In this document: positions 379 through 6,137 of the stretch, piece by piece | Numbering within the stretch: the first letter of the stretch is position 1 | Layout: every line of letters starts with the position of its first letter | DNA from: Pseudomonadota bacterium | GTDB taxonomy: Bacteria; Pseudomonadota; Gammaproteobacteria; Burkholderiales; SG8-39 | Reading direction: 5' to 3' | Assembly (NCBI GenBank): GCA_021848555.1 | Contig: JAJZUN010000178.1 | Span: 1 to 6,355, forward strand | Length of the DNA: 6,355 bases | Made by a program: the position numbers and the translations under genes | Notes under the pieces: model-generated | Seen by the model: the letters and a program-made list of their open reading frames with translations, nothing else | What the model was told of the DNA's origin: nothing | Database searches by the model: none

Positions 379-411
379 TTGGCCGAGGGTCCGACCTTAG
401 GCCTCGGCCAA
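379..411. repeat. 10-bp inverted repeat enclosing the hemerythrin stop codon
   Basis: TTGGCCGAGG at 379-388 pairs perfectly with CCTCGGCCAA at 402-411 around a 13-base loop. The loop holds the hemerythrin TAA (397-399 on the - strand), so the last codons of that gene form one arm. Neither side has a T-run, so it is not a standard intrinsic terminator. It more likely acts as an mRNA 3'-end stem, alone or with the repeat at 323-371. Confidence 0.5.
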
Positions 412-873
412 CTCCCGCCGGCGCGTGCGTGCGCGAGCGGCGGGAAACTGGATGACGCTATCGGCCTTATGCAGGAAGTCGCGGTACTTCATGTCCTCCT
501 GCAGCAGATGGTTGACCAGCAGCTGCTTGAGATACAAGCCCTTGAGCGCCCAGGTGAAGCTGACGTCAGTCTGCTCGAATTCCTTCATCACGCGATCGAA
601 CTGGGCGATCAACTGGGCATGCTTGGCCGTGTGTGCCGCCAGCCCCGGATATTTCCATTGCGCCAGCAACCGCTGCTCATCCCAGAAATGATGCGCCGCT
701 TCCATCACCATCAAGTCCAGCAGGCGTTCGACCGTGGCTTTGTCCCGGCATTCGACGATCGCCTGGTTCAGCTCGTTGACCCGCGCGACAAATTGCCTAT
801 GCTCCGCGTTGATCTCCGGAATGCCGACGCTCAAGCTGTCGCTCCAGCTGATTTCCCATTCTCTTTTTTCCAC
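397..873 (-). CDS. Bacteriohemerythrin (single-domain, di-iron oxygen-binding protein)
   Basis: A 158-residue cytoplasmic protein of the hemerythrin family, which binds O2 reversibly at a non-haem di-iron centre. All seven classical ligands are visible with the expected spacing: His25 in NAEHRQF, His62 and Glu66 in HFWDE, His81 and His85 in HTAKH, and His122 and Asp127 in HLLQED. The N-terminal ISWSDSLSVGIPEIN stretch is the usual lead-in to the first helix. The last 14 residues form a basic tail (ARARTRRRELAEA) beyond the four-helix bundle, slightly longer than is common. There is no signal peptide, membrane segment or fused signalling domain, so it is a free carrier or sensor rather than a chemotaxis receptor. 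The start is GTG at 871-873, preceded by AGGGGA six bases upstream. It is monocistronic here, with an FNR-like box upstream. Bacterial members are linked to oxygen supply or oxygen and NO protection; which applies here is not shown. Confidence 0.93.
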   Translation of the reverse strand: MEKREWEISWSDSLSVGIPEINAEHRQFVARVNELNQAIVECRDKATVERLLDLMVMEAAHHFWDEQRLLAQWKYPGLAAHTAKHAQLIAQFDRVMKEFEQTDVSFTWALKGLYLKQLLVNHLLQEDMKYRDFLHKADSVIQFPAARARTRRRELAEA

Positions 874-960: not shown

Positions 961-1197
961 GGATTTCTTATGGAGGGGAGATCGCCCGGGAAGGCCCGTG
1001 CCCGCGCAGGGCTTTCGCGATGTTCAACCGCCCGGGTCATGAGCGGAGGCTGATTGCGGTCATAATGCAGGGGAACACTTGCGCGCCGGCTGTGGGCTAA
1101 GCGCGGACGCGGCTGCCGGCACAGCGCCCTATGCGGTTCCGGTGGAGGATGCGGTTCTCGGCGTTGCGGTGAACGTCAACCGCCCTAGGCAGGCATC
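961..1197. other. Gene-free stretch between the hemerythrin promoter and ftcD
   Basis: The full gap between the hemerythrin start and the ftcD stop is 324 bases. Apart from the FNR-like box at 947-960 I see no gene, RNA gene or clear terminator. Several GC-rich short repeats (GCCCG near 986-1000, GCGGTT near 1133-1157) look like composition rather than structure. The open frames crossing this stretch have no matching family and unbalanced composition. No hairpin with a T-run is visible where ftcD transcription should end. Confidence 0.5.
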
Positions 1198-3045
1198 CTA
1201 CTTTTGCAGCATCGCCTCAAGGCGCGCGTTTCCCTCGCTGGTCGCGCGCGCCAGCAGGGCGCTGGCGCTGTCTAGCAGCTTGGCGCAGGTGGGGCGCATT
1301 TCAGCCACGAAGTTCGCGTCAGTGATGTCTTTGAGGTTGATCAGGACATTCCAGATGCCGCCGCGCACGCCGGCGAAGGCGATGGTGAAGCCCATCAAGG
1401 CGTCGGTGATGCAGTTTGGATTGCCGTGGCGCATGGTCAATTCAGCGGTTTCCATGGCTTCGTAGCTGAGGCGCGCCGTGCGCAGCGGCACCTCGATTGC
1501 GAGCTTGAGGCCTTCCTGCATCTTCGCCTGGCGATAGGTCTTCTCCGCGTCGGTGCCCGCAGGCAGGCGTCGCGCGTCCATGTATGCGCTGAACGCCGAG
1601 GTGTCTTCGTCCACGGCCAGCATCAGGGCGTCTTTCACGTGTTGCGCTTTTTCGGCGGCGGCCAGGAGCTGCTGCTCGGCCGCTACGCTGCCGGCCTTGC
1701 CCTGCGTCAGATTGGCGACCATCGATGCAAGCGCGGCGCCCAGGCTTCCGGCGAGGGCGGCGATGGATCCGCCGCCGGGGGCGGGTGTGCCGCGGCTCAC
1801 CTCGTCCACGAGGTCGCGGCAGCGCATGGCCATCAGGCCGCCGGCATACTCCTTGGGCAGGCCGAGGATCTTCTTTGCCGGTTCGAACGGCGCGACGTCG
1901 TCTAGACCCATGCTGAATACCGCGGCGCGGAGCACGTCGCTAACGGGTACGAATGCGCTCTTGCCCTGGGCCTGCAGATAAGCGCACCCCGCCTGGTAGA
2001 GCGCCTGGAACGGCACCAAGCCTACGATTTCGCTGCCGGTCACGACCAGGCCGCGCGCCGCAGCCAGGTTTCGCGCCGCCTCGAGCACGTCCCGGGGTGA
2101 AGTCACGCGCCAGTTGGTCAGATTGATCGAAAGCTGGACCCGCTGGTAGGCGTCCACATACCAGCCGATGGCCTTGCAGGACTTGAACTGGCCCGCGCGA
2201 TAGACCTTCTGGCCGATCACGCTCCTTGCCGCATCGATATCGTTCAGGGCGAGCAGGTCGCGTAAAGAGTAGTCGTGGATTTCGCGGCAGTGTTGTTCAG
2301 TGTCCTCAAAGCGCTTGCCGTCGAATCCACAATTGCCGCAGGGAAACGAGTCTTCGGCATAGTGCAGTTCCTGGCCGCTCGAGTAATACGCATTCTTCTG
2401 GCCGCGTCGGGCGACGCGGCCTTTCTCGCGCAGCTCCAGGGCGATGTCGGTCGCGTGCGCTTTATCCGTGCTGTTGAGATTGATGTTGTAGGCGATCAGG
2501 AATTCGCGCGCACCGGTGATCAGCGCGCCGAAACCCGGATCGAACCGGGCCGGGCCGAAGTCTGGTGTCCACTCCGGGTCCGCCAATTTCTTTTCCAGAC
2601 CTTCGTATTCGCCTTTGCGCACCACCGCCAGATTGCTGCGCGCGGGCCGGCTTGCGGCCTGTTCGTAGAGGTAGACGGGAACCTCCAGCTCCCTGCCGAC
2701 GCGCTCGCCCAGCCGCCGCGCGAGTTCGGCGCAATCTTCCATGCTTACGCCTTCGACCGGGATGAAAGGGCACACGTCGCATGCGCCCATGCGCGGGTGC
2801 GCGCCCGTGTGCAGGCGCATGTCGATGACCCGGGCAGCCGCGGCAATGCCGCGGAATGCGGCTTCGACCGCGCTGTCCGGATCACCGACGAAGGTCACTA
2901 CCGTGCGGTTGGTGTCCGCACCGGCATCGACGTCCATAAGCCTGATGCCGGATACCGATTCTATGGCTTCGGTGATCTGGCGCACTTTGGCCATGTCGCG
3001 GCCTTCCGAGAAATTGGGCACGCACTCGACGACGCGGTGGTTCAT
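1198..3045 (-). CDS. ftcD: Bifunctional glutamate formimidoyltransferase / formimidoyl-THF cyclodeaminase, with a zinc-finger-like insertion
   Basis: A 615-residue cytoplasmic enzyme for the last step of histidine degradation. It moves the formimino group of N-formimino-L-glutamate to tetrahydrofolate, releasing glutamate, then deaminates the product to 5,10-methenyl-THF and ammonia. Residues 1-185 are the N-terminal transferase subdomain (VECVPNFSEGRD at 7-18; GAHPRMGACDVCPFIP at 81-96, whose His83 aligns with the catalytic His82 of the pig enzyme). Residues 186-350 are the C-terminal transferase subdomain (KAIGWYVDAYQRVQLSINLTN; TGSEIVGLVP). Residues about 405-615 are the cyclodeaminase (GTPAPGGGSIAAL at 419-431; NVLINLKDITD at 566-576). 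Both halves look intact. Between REKGR (206-210) and KAIGW (291-295) there are about 80 residues where the human enzyme has about a dozen; the extra part carries Cys236, Cys239, His252 and His257. The start is ATG at 3043-3045 with GAGGA four bases upstream. It lies 49 bases after hutC on the same strand, probably one transcript. Confidence 0.93.
   Translation of the reverse strand: MNHRVVECVPNFSEGRDMAKVRQITEAIESVSGIRLMDVDAGADTNRTVVTFVGDPDSAVEAAFRGIAAAARVIDMRLHTGAHPRMGACDVCPFIPVEGVSMEDCAELARRLGERVGRELEVPVYLYEQAASRPARSNLAVVRKGEYEGLEKKLADPEWTPDFGPARFDPGFGALITGAREFLIAYNINLNSTDKAHATDIALELREKGRVARRGQKNAYYSSGQELHYAEDSFPCGNCGFDGKRFEDTEQHCREIHDYSLRDLLALNDIDAARSVIGQKVYRAGQFKSCKAIGWYVDAYQRVQLSINLTNWRVTSPRDVLEAARNLAAARGLVVTGSEIVGLVPFQALYQAGCAYLQAQGKSAFVPVSDVLRAAVFSMGLDDVAPFEPAKKILGLPKEYAGGLMAMRCRDLVDEVSRGTPAPGGGSIAALAGSLGAALASMVANLTQGKAGSVAAEQQLLAAAEKAQHVKDALMLAVDEDTSAFSAYMDARRLPAGTDAEKTYRQAKMQEGLKLAIEVPLRTARLSYEAMETAELTMRHGNPNCITDALMGFTIAFAGVRGGIWNVLINLKDITDANFVAEMRPTCAKLLDSASALLARATSEGNARLEAMLQK
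2275..2346 (-). other. C2H2 zinc-finger-like motif inside FTCD
   Basis: Residues 234-257 of the FTCD protein read F-x-C-x2-C-x12-H-x4-H, using Cys236, Cys239, His252 and His257. This fits the classical C2H2 spacing, including the aromatic residue two before the first cysteine. The inner hydrophobic positions fit poorly: Phe is at positions 2 and 7 after the second Cys rather than 4, and Thr sits where Leu is usual. Zinc binding is therefore plausible but not shown. The human enzyme lacks this segment. It lies in a loop between strands of the second transferase subdomain, away from the GAHPRMG catalytic stretch in sequence. Confidence 0.6.
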
Positions 3046-3094: not shown

Positions 3095-3838
3095 TTAAAA
3101 CGAGCCGGTAAACTGGTAACGGCTGGCCGGGTGCCACATGGTGGCCACGGACGCGACCGTTCCCATGGATCGGGTGGTTCGATACAGGACCAGGCAGGGC
3201 TCGCCCGCCGGCATCGCCAGCCGTTTGCGGATATCCGGGGGCGGCAATTTCGCTTCGATACGGTAGCTCACCCCCTGCAACGGGGCAACCCGCATCAGGT
3301 ACTCGTTCGGTGTCGAGTGGACAAAGTCCTGGTTCAGATAATCGGGGGCGAGGGCGGCGTTGACCCAGCGGTCTTCCACCTGAATCTGAATCTCGTTCTC
3401 GTAGTGCACCAGGATCGAGTGAAACAGCCGGATACCGCGCGGTGCGTCGAATTGCCGCGCCAGTTGAACCGGAGCCCGCGTGCCCTCCAGCAGGACGACC
3501 GCGCAGGCGTGGCGATCGCCGCGGCTGCGCACTTCGTCGGCGATGCTGCGGATCGCGACCAGTGTGGACTGGTATTTGTGCTGCGCGACAAACGTTCCCA
3601 GGCCCTGGATGCGATTCACGCTCTGCTCGGCCGCCAGTTCGCGCAGGGCGCGGTTGACCGTCATGCGCGCCACGCCGAACTGCAGGCCCAGGGCGGCTTC
3701 GGTCGGAATCTGGTCGCCTTCCTTCCATTCGCCGGCATGGATGCGCCGCAGGATGTGGTCCTTGATTCTCTGGAACGACGGGACGCCCGCTTTGCGGGAG
3801 CGCTGTTTCTTTGCCGTCCTGTGCCTGGTACGCGTCAC
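3095..3838 (-). CDS. hutC: HutC-type GntR-family repressor of histidine utilisation
   Basis: A 247-residue DNA-binding repressor. Residues about 20-86 form the GntR winged helix-turn-helix (SFQRIKDHILRRIHAGEW, then GDQIPTEAAL, then FGVARMTVNRALRELAAE, then the wing RIQGLGTFVA). Residues about 92-240 form the UTRA effector domain, with the HutC-like stretches STLVAIRSIADEVRSRG, LAPDYLNQDF, TPNEYLMRVAPL and SVATMWHPASRYQF. HutC proteins release DNA when urocanate binds. An 18-residue basic tail (MTRTRHRTAKKQRSRKAG) precedes the HTH and may add DNA contacts. The start is GTG at 3836-3838 with AGGAAGG just upstream; the next in-frame Met falls inside the HTH, so a later start is excluded. It precedes ftcD in the same orientation and faces two TTGTATAGACAA palindromes, which suggests autoregulation together with control of both divergent arms. 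Confidence 0.92.
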   Translation of the reverse strand: MTRTRHRTAKKQRSRKAGVPSFQRIKDHILRRIHAGEWKEGDQIPTEAALGLQFGVARMTVNRALRELAAEQSVNRIQGLGTFVAQHKYQSTLVAIRSIADEVRSRGDRHACAVVLLEGTRAPVQLARQFDAPRGIRLFHSILVHYENEIQIQVEDRWVNAALAPDYLNQDFVHSTPNEYLMRVAPLQGVSYRIEAKLPPPDIRKRLAMPAGEPCLVLYRTTRSMGTVASVATMWHPASRYQFTGSF

Positions 3839-4045: not shown

Positions 4046-5194
4046 ATGAACTACACGAGACTCGCAGTCGCCGTAACCGCGGCATTCGCAATGCAGTTTG
4101 GCGTGCCCGCCTGGGCGCAGGTGAAAATCGGCATCAACGTGCCGCTGACGGGCTTTGCCGCGGCCGACGGGAAGTCGGCCCTGGACGGCGCCAAACTGGC
4201 GGTGGCTGACGCCAATGCCAAGGGCGGCATGAATGGCGAGAAATTCGAACTGGTGATCTACGACGACCAGGCCTCGCCCAAGGAAGCCACTCCGGCAGCG
4301 ACCAAGCTGATCGAAAAAGACAAGGTGGTGGTCGGCGTATCCGGTTCCTACTCCGCGTCTACGCGTGCGGCGGCGCCACTGTTCCAGGCGGCGAAGGTGC
4401 CTTACGTGGTGGCCTATTCGATCCATCCGGATGTGACCCTGACTGGCGACTATGTGTTTCGCACCGCGACCATGGGCGAAGTGCAGGGTCGCGCCGGCGC
4501 CAAACTGGCCAGCGAACTGGGCAAGAAGCGGGTGGTGATGATCACGCTCAAGAACGACTTTGGCCAGGCGCTTGGTGCGGGTTTCAAGGAGGCGGCGCCA
4601 AGATTCGGCATTAACATCGTCAACGAGTACGAGTACGGCATGCCCGACCGCCAGTTCGGCGCGCTGATCTCCAAAGTGAAATCTGACAACCCCGAGTTGA
4701 TCTATGCGTCGGGCTACTTCTTCACCGCCGGACCGCTGGTGAATCAGTTGCGCGCGGCCGGCGTCACCGTCCCGGTCATCGGACAGGAAGGCTACGATTC
4801 GGAGAAGTTCATCGAGATCGCCGGGGCGGCATCCGAGGGCACGCTGGTCACCACGTCGCTCGATCGCGACTCGGCGTCGCCGGTCACGCAGGCCTTCCTG
4901 AAGGATTTCCGCGCAGCGTACAACTACGGCGCGGACATGGTCGGGGCATCGACCTACACCGCCACCAGCATTGCGATCGAAGGCCTGAAGAAGACCGGCG
5001 GCAAAGGCGGCGAGGCGTTGAAAAAGGCTATCGAAAGCGGTACGTTCAGCACGCCCATCGGCACGCTCAGCTTCAACGACCTGCACGAAGTGAAGAAAGA
5101 CGTGCAGGTGCAGGTGGTCAAAGGCAAGGCGTTCCACCGCCACTCGGTAATCTCCGATCCGGTGCTGCTGGCGCCGCCGACCAAGGCGAAGTAA
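4046..5194 (+). CDS. ABC transporter periplasmic binding protein, LivJ/LivK type, probably for a histidine-related substrate
   Basis: A 382-residue substrate-binding protein of the branched-chain amino acid family (Peripla_BP_6). Residues 1-24 are a Sec signal peptide ending AWA, cleaved before Gln25; no lipobox cysteine is present, so the mature protein is soluble in the periplasm. The fold begins VKIGINVPLTG and continues with GMNGEKFELVIYDDQ (61-75), the first-lobe ligand region SGSYSAST (99-106) and VVAYSIHPDV (121-130), and the second-lobe GQEGYDS (246-252). Glu248 aligns with the LivJ glutamate that holds the ligand amino group, suggesting an amino-acid-like ligand. The segment YSIHP replaces the usual PGATNP-like stretch of leucine-binding proteins, suggesting a different side chain. 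The start is ATG at 4046 with AGGGG seven bases upstream. It is the first gene of the transporter operon and divergent from hutC across shared operators. I give no gene symbol because the substrate is not established. Confidence 0.88.
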   Translation: MNYTRLAVAVTAAFAMQFGVPAWAQVKIGINVPLTGFAAADGKSALDGAKLAVADANAKGGMNGEKFELVIYDDQASPKEATPAATKLIEKDKVVVGVSGSYSASTRAAAPLFQAAKVPYVVAYSIHPDVTLTGDYVFRTATMGEVQGRAGAKLASELGKKRVVMITLKNDFGQALGAGFKEAAPRFGINIVNEYEYGMPDRQFGALISKVKSDNPELIYASGYFFTAGPLVNQLRAAGVTVPVIGQEGYDSEKFIEIAGAASEGTLVTTSLDRDSASPVTQAFLKDFRAAYNYGADMVGASTYTATSIAIEGLKKTGGKGGEALKKAIESGTFSTPIGTLSFNDLHEVKKDVQVQVVKGKAFHRHSVISDPVLLAPPTKAK

Positions 5195-5213
5195 GGCAAT
5201 TGGATCGCGTCTG

Positions 5214-5235
5214 CGCGCTGGCTTTGGCCAGCGCG
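5214..5235 (+). repeat. Strong hairpin between the binding-protein and LivH genes
   Basis: CGCGCTGGC (5214-5222) pairs perfectly with GCCAGCGCG (5227-5235) around a TTTG loop: nine base pairs, mostly G-C. It follows the binding-protein stop (5192-5194) by 19 bases. No T-run follows, so it should not terminate all transcripts. Such stems after a binding-protein gene commonly protect the upstream mRNA from 3' decay, giving more binding protein than permease. That role is inferred here. Confidence 0.7.
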
Positions 5236-5257
5236 GAGGCGTGCTTACGCGCCGCGC

Positions 5258-5263
5258 AGGGAG
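5258..5263 (+). promoter_or_regulatory. Ribosome binding site that decides the LivH start
   Basis: AGGGAG lies seven bases before ATG 5271. The alternative in-frame GTG at 5241 has GGAGG only one base upstream and follows directly on the hairpin, so it is a poor start. Confidence 0.7.
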
Positions 5264-5270
5264 CCGCCGC

Positions 5271-6137
5271 ATGCTGTTCGTCGAACTGATCGCCCAGGGC
5301 CTGATACAGGGGAGCATTTACGCTCTCATCGCGCTGGGCTTGACGCTGGTCTACGGCCTGCTGCGCATCCTGCACGTCGCCCACGCCGCTTTCTTTACCC
5401 TGGGCGGCTACGTTGGCGTGATGGTCGCCAATCAAACCGGCAGCCTGGCGGCGGCGATCGTCGCCGCCATGATCGTAGCCGGCATAGGCGGGATCCTGGT
5501 GTTCCGGCTGTGCTACCAGCCGATACTGCATCAACCGCCGTTTGTGCCGCTGATCGCCTCCATCGGACTGTACATCGCCGCCGAAGAGCTTTTCCGCATC
5601 ATCTTCGGGCCGTCCGGCCTGACTTACAACGACGCCTTCCTGCAGGGTCAGGTGGTTCTGTTCGGCTTCCTGCGCTTCAAGGTGGCCGAAATCGCGGTGA
5701 TGCTGGGCAGCGCAGCCATCATCGGCGTATTGAGCCTGCTGCAGACCCGTACCCGTATCGGCGTGGCTTGCCGGGCGACGGTGTCCGATCCGCAGATGGC
5801 GGAGTCTTTCGGCATTTCGCTGCGCAAAGTGGGCGACATCAACTTCTTCGTCGGTTCCGCGCTGGCGGCGTTCGCCGGGGTCATGGTGTCCGTGCTCAAC
5901 AATATGGTCGAGCCGACCATGGGCAGCGTGCCTTCCTACAAGGCGCTCGCGATCATCGTGCTCGGCGGCCTCGGCTCGGTGCGCGGGACCCTGGCGGCGG
6001 CGCTGGTGCTGGGCGTGGTGGAGTCCTTCGGCACCGTCTATCTTGGCCGTTTTCTCGATCGCAATGCGATCGCCTTCGCCTTCCTGATTCTGGTTTTGAT
6101 GTGGCGGCCGCAGGGTTTGTTCACGAGGGCCGGGTAG
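5271..6137 (+). CDS. livH: LivH-type ABC transporter permease
   Basis: A 288-residue inner-membrane permease of the branched-chain amino acid ABC family (BPD_transp_2), one of two subunits forming the channel. The start has the family pattern GLIQGSIYALIALGLTLVYGLLRI (residues 10-33), followed by HVAHAAFFTLGGY (35-47). Hydrophobic segments are visible at about 12-32, 38-52, 58-80, 92-112, 138-157, 190-210, 224-254 and 264-278. The cytoplasmic loop expected to touch the ATPase is GVACRATVSDPQMAESFGI (164-182), and the C-terminal GGLGSVRGTLAAAL (232-245) is typical. Length is normal for LivH (about 290). It begins 76 bases after the binding-protein stop, beyond a strong hairpin, and its TAG is followed immediately by the next gene's ATG. 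The symbol denotes family; the substrate may be a histidine-pathway compound. Confidence 0.9.
   Translation: MLFVELIAQGLIQGSIYALIALGLTLVYGLLRILHVAHAAFFTLGGYVGVMVANQTGSLAAAIVAAMIVAGIGGILVFRLCYQPILHQPPFVPLIASIGLYIAAEELFRIIFGPSGLTYNDAFLQGQVVLFGFLRFKVAEIAVMLGSAAIIGVLSLLQTRTRIGVACRATVSDPQMAESFGISLRKVGDINFFVGSALAAFAGVMVSVLNNMVEPTMGSVPSYKALAIIVLGGLGSVRGTLAAALVLGVVESFGTVYLGRFLDRNAIAFAFLILVLMWRPQGLFTRAG

Follow-up and report, generated by a model that had tools for sequence, protein, structure and literature searches.

Does a bacterial folate enzyme carry a metal-binding finger inside one of its catalytic domains, and if so, what could the finger do there? The question is raised by a 6,355-nucleotide stretch of DNA (the window; contig JAJZUN010000178.1 of assembly GCA_021848555.1) from a Pseudomonadota bacterium of the Burkholderiales, which encodes a 615-residue bifunctional glutamate formimidoyltransferase/formimidoyl-tetrahydrofolate cyclodeaminase (FTCD). 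The original prediction, made from the sequence alone, described a C2H2 zinc-finger-like insertion in the formimidoyltransferase (FT) half at window positions 2191-2415. On the reverse strand these positions correspond to residues 211-285 of the FTCD open reading frame (ORF), and Cys236, Cys239, His252 and His257 lie in frame in the arrangement F-x-C-x2-C-x12-H-x4-H, just as it had claimed. This arrangement fits the general C2H2 ligand pattern C-x2-4-C-x12-H-x3-5-H, and it is conserved. Our analysis favors, with fair confidence, an otherwise ordinary bifunctional FTCD that bears a zinc-binding mini-domain of the C2H2 type in its formiminotransferase C-subdomain; this mini-domain would serve as a structural brace on the tip of a hairpin.

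The enzyme around the insert gives no sign of damage. FTCD_N, FTCD and FTCD_C occur in one chain and all score above their gathering thresholds (PF07837, E = 4.2e-72; PF02971, E = 1.7e-41; PF04961, E = 3.5e-58), and the NCBIfam glutamate formimidoyltransferase model TIGR02024 scores 343.6 bits (cut-off 221.25). His82 and Asp412 of the solved FTCD chain align with His83 and Asp481, both invariant in a 73-row alignment (A2), which we take to be the catalytic residues of the FT and cyclodeaminase halves, respectively. Judged by its domains and catalytic residues, the window FTCD is an intact bifunctional enzyme, as the original prediction held. Because the catalytic residues are both in place and many relatives do without the finger, it appears to be an add-on.

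How much has been added depends on the comparison. Compared with the solved FTCD chain (1tt9/2pfd), the window FTCD matches up to residue 210 (chain 208) and again from 284 (chain 213), leaving 73 residues where the animal enzymes (PDB 1tt9, 2pfd and 1qd1, presumably of rat and pig) have 4. The predicted excess of about 70 residues over the human enzyme thus holds against a solved animal chain, the human sequence not being the one compared, but it shrinks against bacterial FTCDs of intermediate length. These have the same domain fusion and the same site between LREKGR and KAIGWY, with 14-24 residues and no Cys/His motif in place of the finger. When aligned, they match both ends of the insert, around Gly224 and around residues 278-284, so that the net gain over them would be about 50 residues rather than 70. 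Across 290 aligned sequences, the spacing between Arg210 and Gly285 measures 0-24 residues where the motif is absent (51 sequences, chosen from the listed Acidobacteriota rows) and 72-74 in motif bearers, except for one contig-end fragment with 56. Since the finger-less FTCDs of intermediate length already have a short hairpin-like stretch at this place, the finger-bearing form is best read from the alignments as a domain of roughly 50 residues set on the tip of a pre-existing hairpin.

The original prediction proposed checking whether the four candidate ligands are conserved together. The motif is exact in all 120 listed best protein database matches (7999 scored), in all 80 genome loci examined (the best 80 of 138 confirmed) and in 32 of 32 Acidobacteriota insert genes. 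Only seven columns stay invariant across 36 diverse inserts: Arg213, Tyr221, Gly224 and the four ligands. A recount by length only found at least 50 residues at the site in 239 of the 290 aligned sequences, every one of which has the motif. The set of 239 behind the charge and residue counts given below, which includes repeats and contains 203 distinct inserts, was itself chosen by the motif, so ligand invariance in 203 of 203 is there by construction and is not evidence; the 80 loci were likewise found partly with finger-derived peptide patterns.

The conservation test is therefore carried by samples in which the insert was detected independently of the finger, by running the FT family model TIGR02024 on whole genomes, where a long insert splits the match. 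In Bdellovibrionota an FT gene was found in 14 of 144 genomes and was split in seven, all seven with the motif. In Myxococcota 26 of 95 genomes have an FT gene, six of them with a long split, and the motif is present in all six. These are the same six genomes that the insert profile finds (G004 and G010, with loci L070 and L061, among them). In a seventh Myxococcota genome with two matches (G609), the gene is broken over two contigs and the relevant piece has neither the motif nor a long insert. Eleven of the 13 finger-independent genes were already among the 80 loci; L170 and L173 are new. Together with the Acidobacteriota, these genes also confirm that similar long forms exist in other bacteria. 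It is highly improbable that the four residues merely survive as a relic, or form a chance pattern, and bind no metal; nothing was found in favor of this, they are retained among relatives down to about 49% identity and the motif occurred in 0 of 20,000 shuffled versions of the window protein.

Features of the FTCD locus in the 6,355-nucleotide window
Feature	Position	Strand	Basis
FTCD, bifunctional glutamate formimidoyltransferase/formimidoyl-tetrahydrofolate cyclodeaminase, 615 residues	1198..3045	-	ORF; PF07837, PF02971, PF04961, TIGR02024
Insert without counterpart in solved animal FTCD, residues 211-283	2197..2415	-	Split alignment 4-210 / 284-600 against 1tt9; length distribution
C2H2-type finger core, residues 234-257	2275..2346	-	Motif; strand 233-235 and helix 246-257 in model; PRMT3 1wir match
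Cys236, predicted zinc ligand	2338..2340	-	Motif; invariant among 36 inserts
Cys239, predicted zinc ligand	2329..2331	-	Motif; invariant among 36 inserts
His252, predicted zinc ligand	2290..2292	-	Motif; invariant among 36 inserts
His257, predicted zinc ligand	2275..2277	-	Motif; invariant among 36 inserts
Formiminotransferase N-terminal subdomain, residues 5-180, including His83	2506..3033	-	Pfam range; His83 invariant in alignment A2
Cyclodeaminase domain (FTCD_C), residues 409-588, including Asp481	1282..1821	-	Pfam range; Asp481 invariant in alignment A2
HutC histidine-utilization repressor, directly upstream of FTCD	3095..3838	-	TIGR02018, 279.3 bits (cut-off 220)

Structure prediction, also proposed as a check, agrees with a finger. 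In the AlphaFold2 model of the full protein, residues 211-280 have a pLDDT of 91-96 (92.2 overall), and the finger region is modeled as beta-beta-alpha, the C2H2 fold. Modeled alone, the insert adopts a similar fold (pLDDT 82.8), in which the finger lies between strands 15-18 and 70-73; as we read the model, these two strands may pair as a hairpin. When the insert profile was compared with PDB sequences, the matches were mostly C2H2 fingers, with that of PRMT3 (1wir) first (E = 5.7e-5) and those of ADR1 and CTCF also present. The PRMT3 finger was the top Foldseek match too, although not significant there. Microcompartment-shell proteins and other lower matches of the whole FTCD model were taken as general folds and set aside.

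The classical C2H2 consensus has a Phe four residues after the second Cys. At this position the 203 distinct inserts have Gly in 155 and Phe in only 18, and aromatic residues instead prevail at positions 241 and 246. The original description of an exact classical C2H2 finger is accordingly right for the ligand spacing but not for the hydrophobic core. One review also gives other aliphatic or aromatic choices for the core position (PMC10216425). The window insert also stays below a Pfam C2H2 cut-off, scoring 16.6 bits against the ZHX finger (cut-off 27), and three of the 36 diverse inserts matched PF00096 at E ≤ 1. By its sequence, the finger is of the C2H2 type with a different core and not of the canonical subtype.

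C2H2 fingers often bind nucleic acid, and the matches to ADR1 and CTCF would suit a moonlighting regulator that does so. The charge of the finger argues against DNA or RNA binding: net charge runs from -8 to 0 and is never positive (mean -3.8, median pI 4.8; n = 239, repeats included). Moreover, only one finger is present. We find nucleic acid binding scarcely credible. The Ros/MucR prokaryotic zinc finger, whose structure 2jsp ranks third in Foldseek (E = 1.5), resembles the window finger in its C-x2-C and H-x4-H pairs and its extra helix. However, Ros is described in PMC9779718 as a DNA-binding regulator with a 9-residue spacer between Cys and His, whereas the window finger has a spacer of 12, is acidic and lies within an enzyme, which places it outside the Ros/MucR type. 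Most likely the insert acts as a structural brace held by metal, and not in DNA binding.

The likeness to PRMT3 raises another possibility: the finger could serve for docking and tie FTCD to a second protein of its pathway, by analogy with the PRMT3 finger and uS5. A gapless alignment of 42 residues covers the four ligands and the helix behind them, and according to the review cited above, uS5 binding requires the PRMT3 finger (PMC10216425). Tyr259, Leu261 and Leu264 are also highly conserved (Tyr in 194, Leu in 193 and Leu in 191 of the 203 inserts, respectively). The same source, however, also gives a model in which the PRMT3 finger folds its own N-terminus and does not touch uS5. PRMT3 is a eukaryotic methyltransferase whose finger (residues 48-71) lies outside its catalytic domain (residues 217-531; PMC10216425), whereas the window finger is nested inside one, and the likeness may be convergence. 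At eight partly scanned loci outside the close relatives of the window there was no common neighbor gene: the matches of 20 ORFs (10 compared with NCBIfam, 10 with Pfam) were mutually unrelated, in a scan that covered part of the neighbors and in which some greedily called ORFs are probably on the wrong strand. We consider docking unlikely, while giving it more weight than the other alternatives.

The original prediction had also named oligomer channeling and a link to zinc or redox state as possible functions. As a switch, loss of zinc or oxidation of Cys would loosen the hairpin and slow formimino transfer or channeling. Two of the ligands are Cys, and two further Cys residues are frequent nearby in the sequence (Cys253 in 184 and Cys290 in 194 of the 203 distinct motif-selected inserts). 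Yet these two vary whereas the ligands stay fixed, and at 184 of 203 Cys253 was rejected as a needed ligand. Furthermore, in the Acidobacteriota sample the match counts of 31 of 32 finger-bearing genomes fit a single gene (in the 32nd the gene is broken over contigs), so that there is no second gene lacking the finger, as a zinc-sparing pair would have. A switch is thus rather improbable. Still less probable is that the finger works as a lid or linker gated by zinc and couples the two FTCD active sites, so that the state of zinc and thiols would set the passage of formimino-folate and make FTCD a metal-controlled folate channel.

Among the functions originally offered, the structural metal site is the one that the sequence comparisons and the model favor. 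For this structural brace, we propose a mini-domain at the tip of a beta-hairpin, preceded by the helix that ends in REKGR and followed by the strand KAIGWY. Cys236, Cys239, His252 and His257 of this mini-domain would jointly hold one zinc. The beta-beta-alpha unit and the next helix (residues 261-267) would form a compact acidic domain, which would stiffen or fix the hairpin and perhaps touch other parts of its own subunit or neighboring subunits in the FTCD assembly. The motif and its constancy in the long inserts, the predicted fold, the place on one side of a tree branch (below) and the retained catalytic residues are computed; zinc occupancy and a permanent structural role are what we infer, with zinc that would be permanently loaded.

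We then considered how the insert is distributed. In Acidobacteriota an FT gene was found in 182 of 199 genomes and the insert, by profile, in 32 of 199. On recheck, no long insert was found in the two-match, finger-less Acidobacteriota genomes among the matches listed: seven carry a second gene without insert, or a piece of such a gene at a contig end, and in another the gene is broken by contig ends and has no insert. The FT gene of a further rechecked Acidobacteriota genome (L180, genome G159) has another kind of insertion, which is shorter, lies elsewhere in the subdomain near profile position 190 and shows no Cys/His motif. In Pseudomonadota the insert is present in at least 1 of 398 sampled genomes, that one being the sample's own center; this is a lower bound, as at most 14 first-look candidates were scored per genome. 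By this count the insert is rare in the phylum. The nearest relatives of the window are metagenome-assembled genomes (MAGs) of Betaproteobacteria/Burkholderiales. Actinomycetes and Bacillota each contribute a single insert-bearing MAG (L071 and L017, respectively), and these two may be binning errors.

When the insert columns are left out, a tree of the FT domain separates 50 insert rows from 11 finger-less rows at an SH-aLRT of 99 (61 hand-chosen rows, a quick method, root not inferred). A single gain fits this tree, although loss and gain are indistinguishable by this count. Phyla are mixed inside the insert clade, suggesting some transfer between lineages. FTCD residues 395-397, 418 and 512-513, in the linker and cyclodeaminase, are nearly fixed in finger-bearing FTCDs and differ in most finger-less ones. 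This could be co-adaptation or mere descent, and such clade-specific positions outside the insert were set aside as evidence because they are confounded by single descent. No FT-only insert gene was seen among the genome loci and the Acidobacteriota sample, and insert ORFs shorter than 597 residues lie at contig ends, contain a stop or (L004 and L024) still cover the cyclodeaminase part. Nor did a search of the protein database with the insert profile (A1) find a stand-alone finger protein of about 40-128 residues (205 candidates of similar length, none at E ≤ 0.01).

HutC lies directly upstream in the same orientation, which makes a role for this FTCD in histidine breakdown likely. Opposite HutC, positions 4046-6137 (forward strand) hold divergent genes of a branched-chain/urea-type ABC transporter (binding protein and permease). 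Their family matches fall below curated cut-offs, the layout in L003 reads the same, and histidine or urocanate uptake is possible. At 1103-1171 (forward strand), a 23-residue piece shares 70% identity (E = 9e-5) with the C-terminal part of a dehydrogenase-like protein, of Gfo/Idh type by reading, which adjoins FTCD at full length in L001, L003 and L010 and was not found in L002, L004, L005, L006 and L011, some of which are short contigs. Going by this similarity, the piece is probably the remnant of a gene lost in the window. Positions 397-873 (reverse strand) encode a bacteriohemerythrin-type protein (NF033749, 91.5 bits; cut-off 84), and an ORF near FTCD in L003 resembles it by reading.

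The insert-bearing FTCD is a variant of a known enzyme with a known domain type in an unusual place. By sequence, no PDB chain represents it (four distinct sequences, the two of FTCD lacking the insert), and a literature search by titles and abstract openings, mostly outside subscription journals, found no paper on an FTCD zinc finger. If our reading is true, a eukaryote-type C2H2 finger is nested in the catalytic domain of a bacterial folate enzyme and has been kept across several phyla, and such fingers can serve an enzyme rather than nucleic acid binding. There are also FTCDs that have a short stretch at this site and no finger, so the two forms would make a natural pair showing what a metal-holding mini-domain adds to a two-step enzyme.
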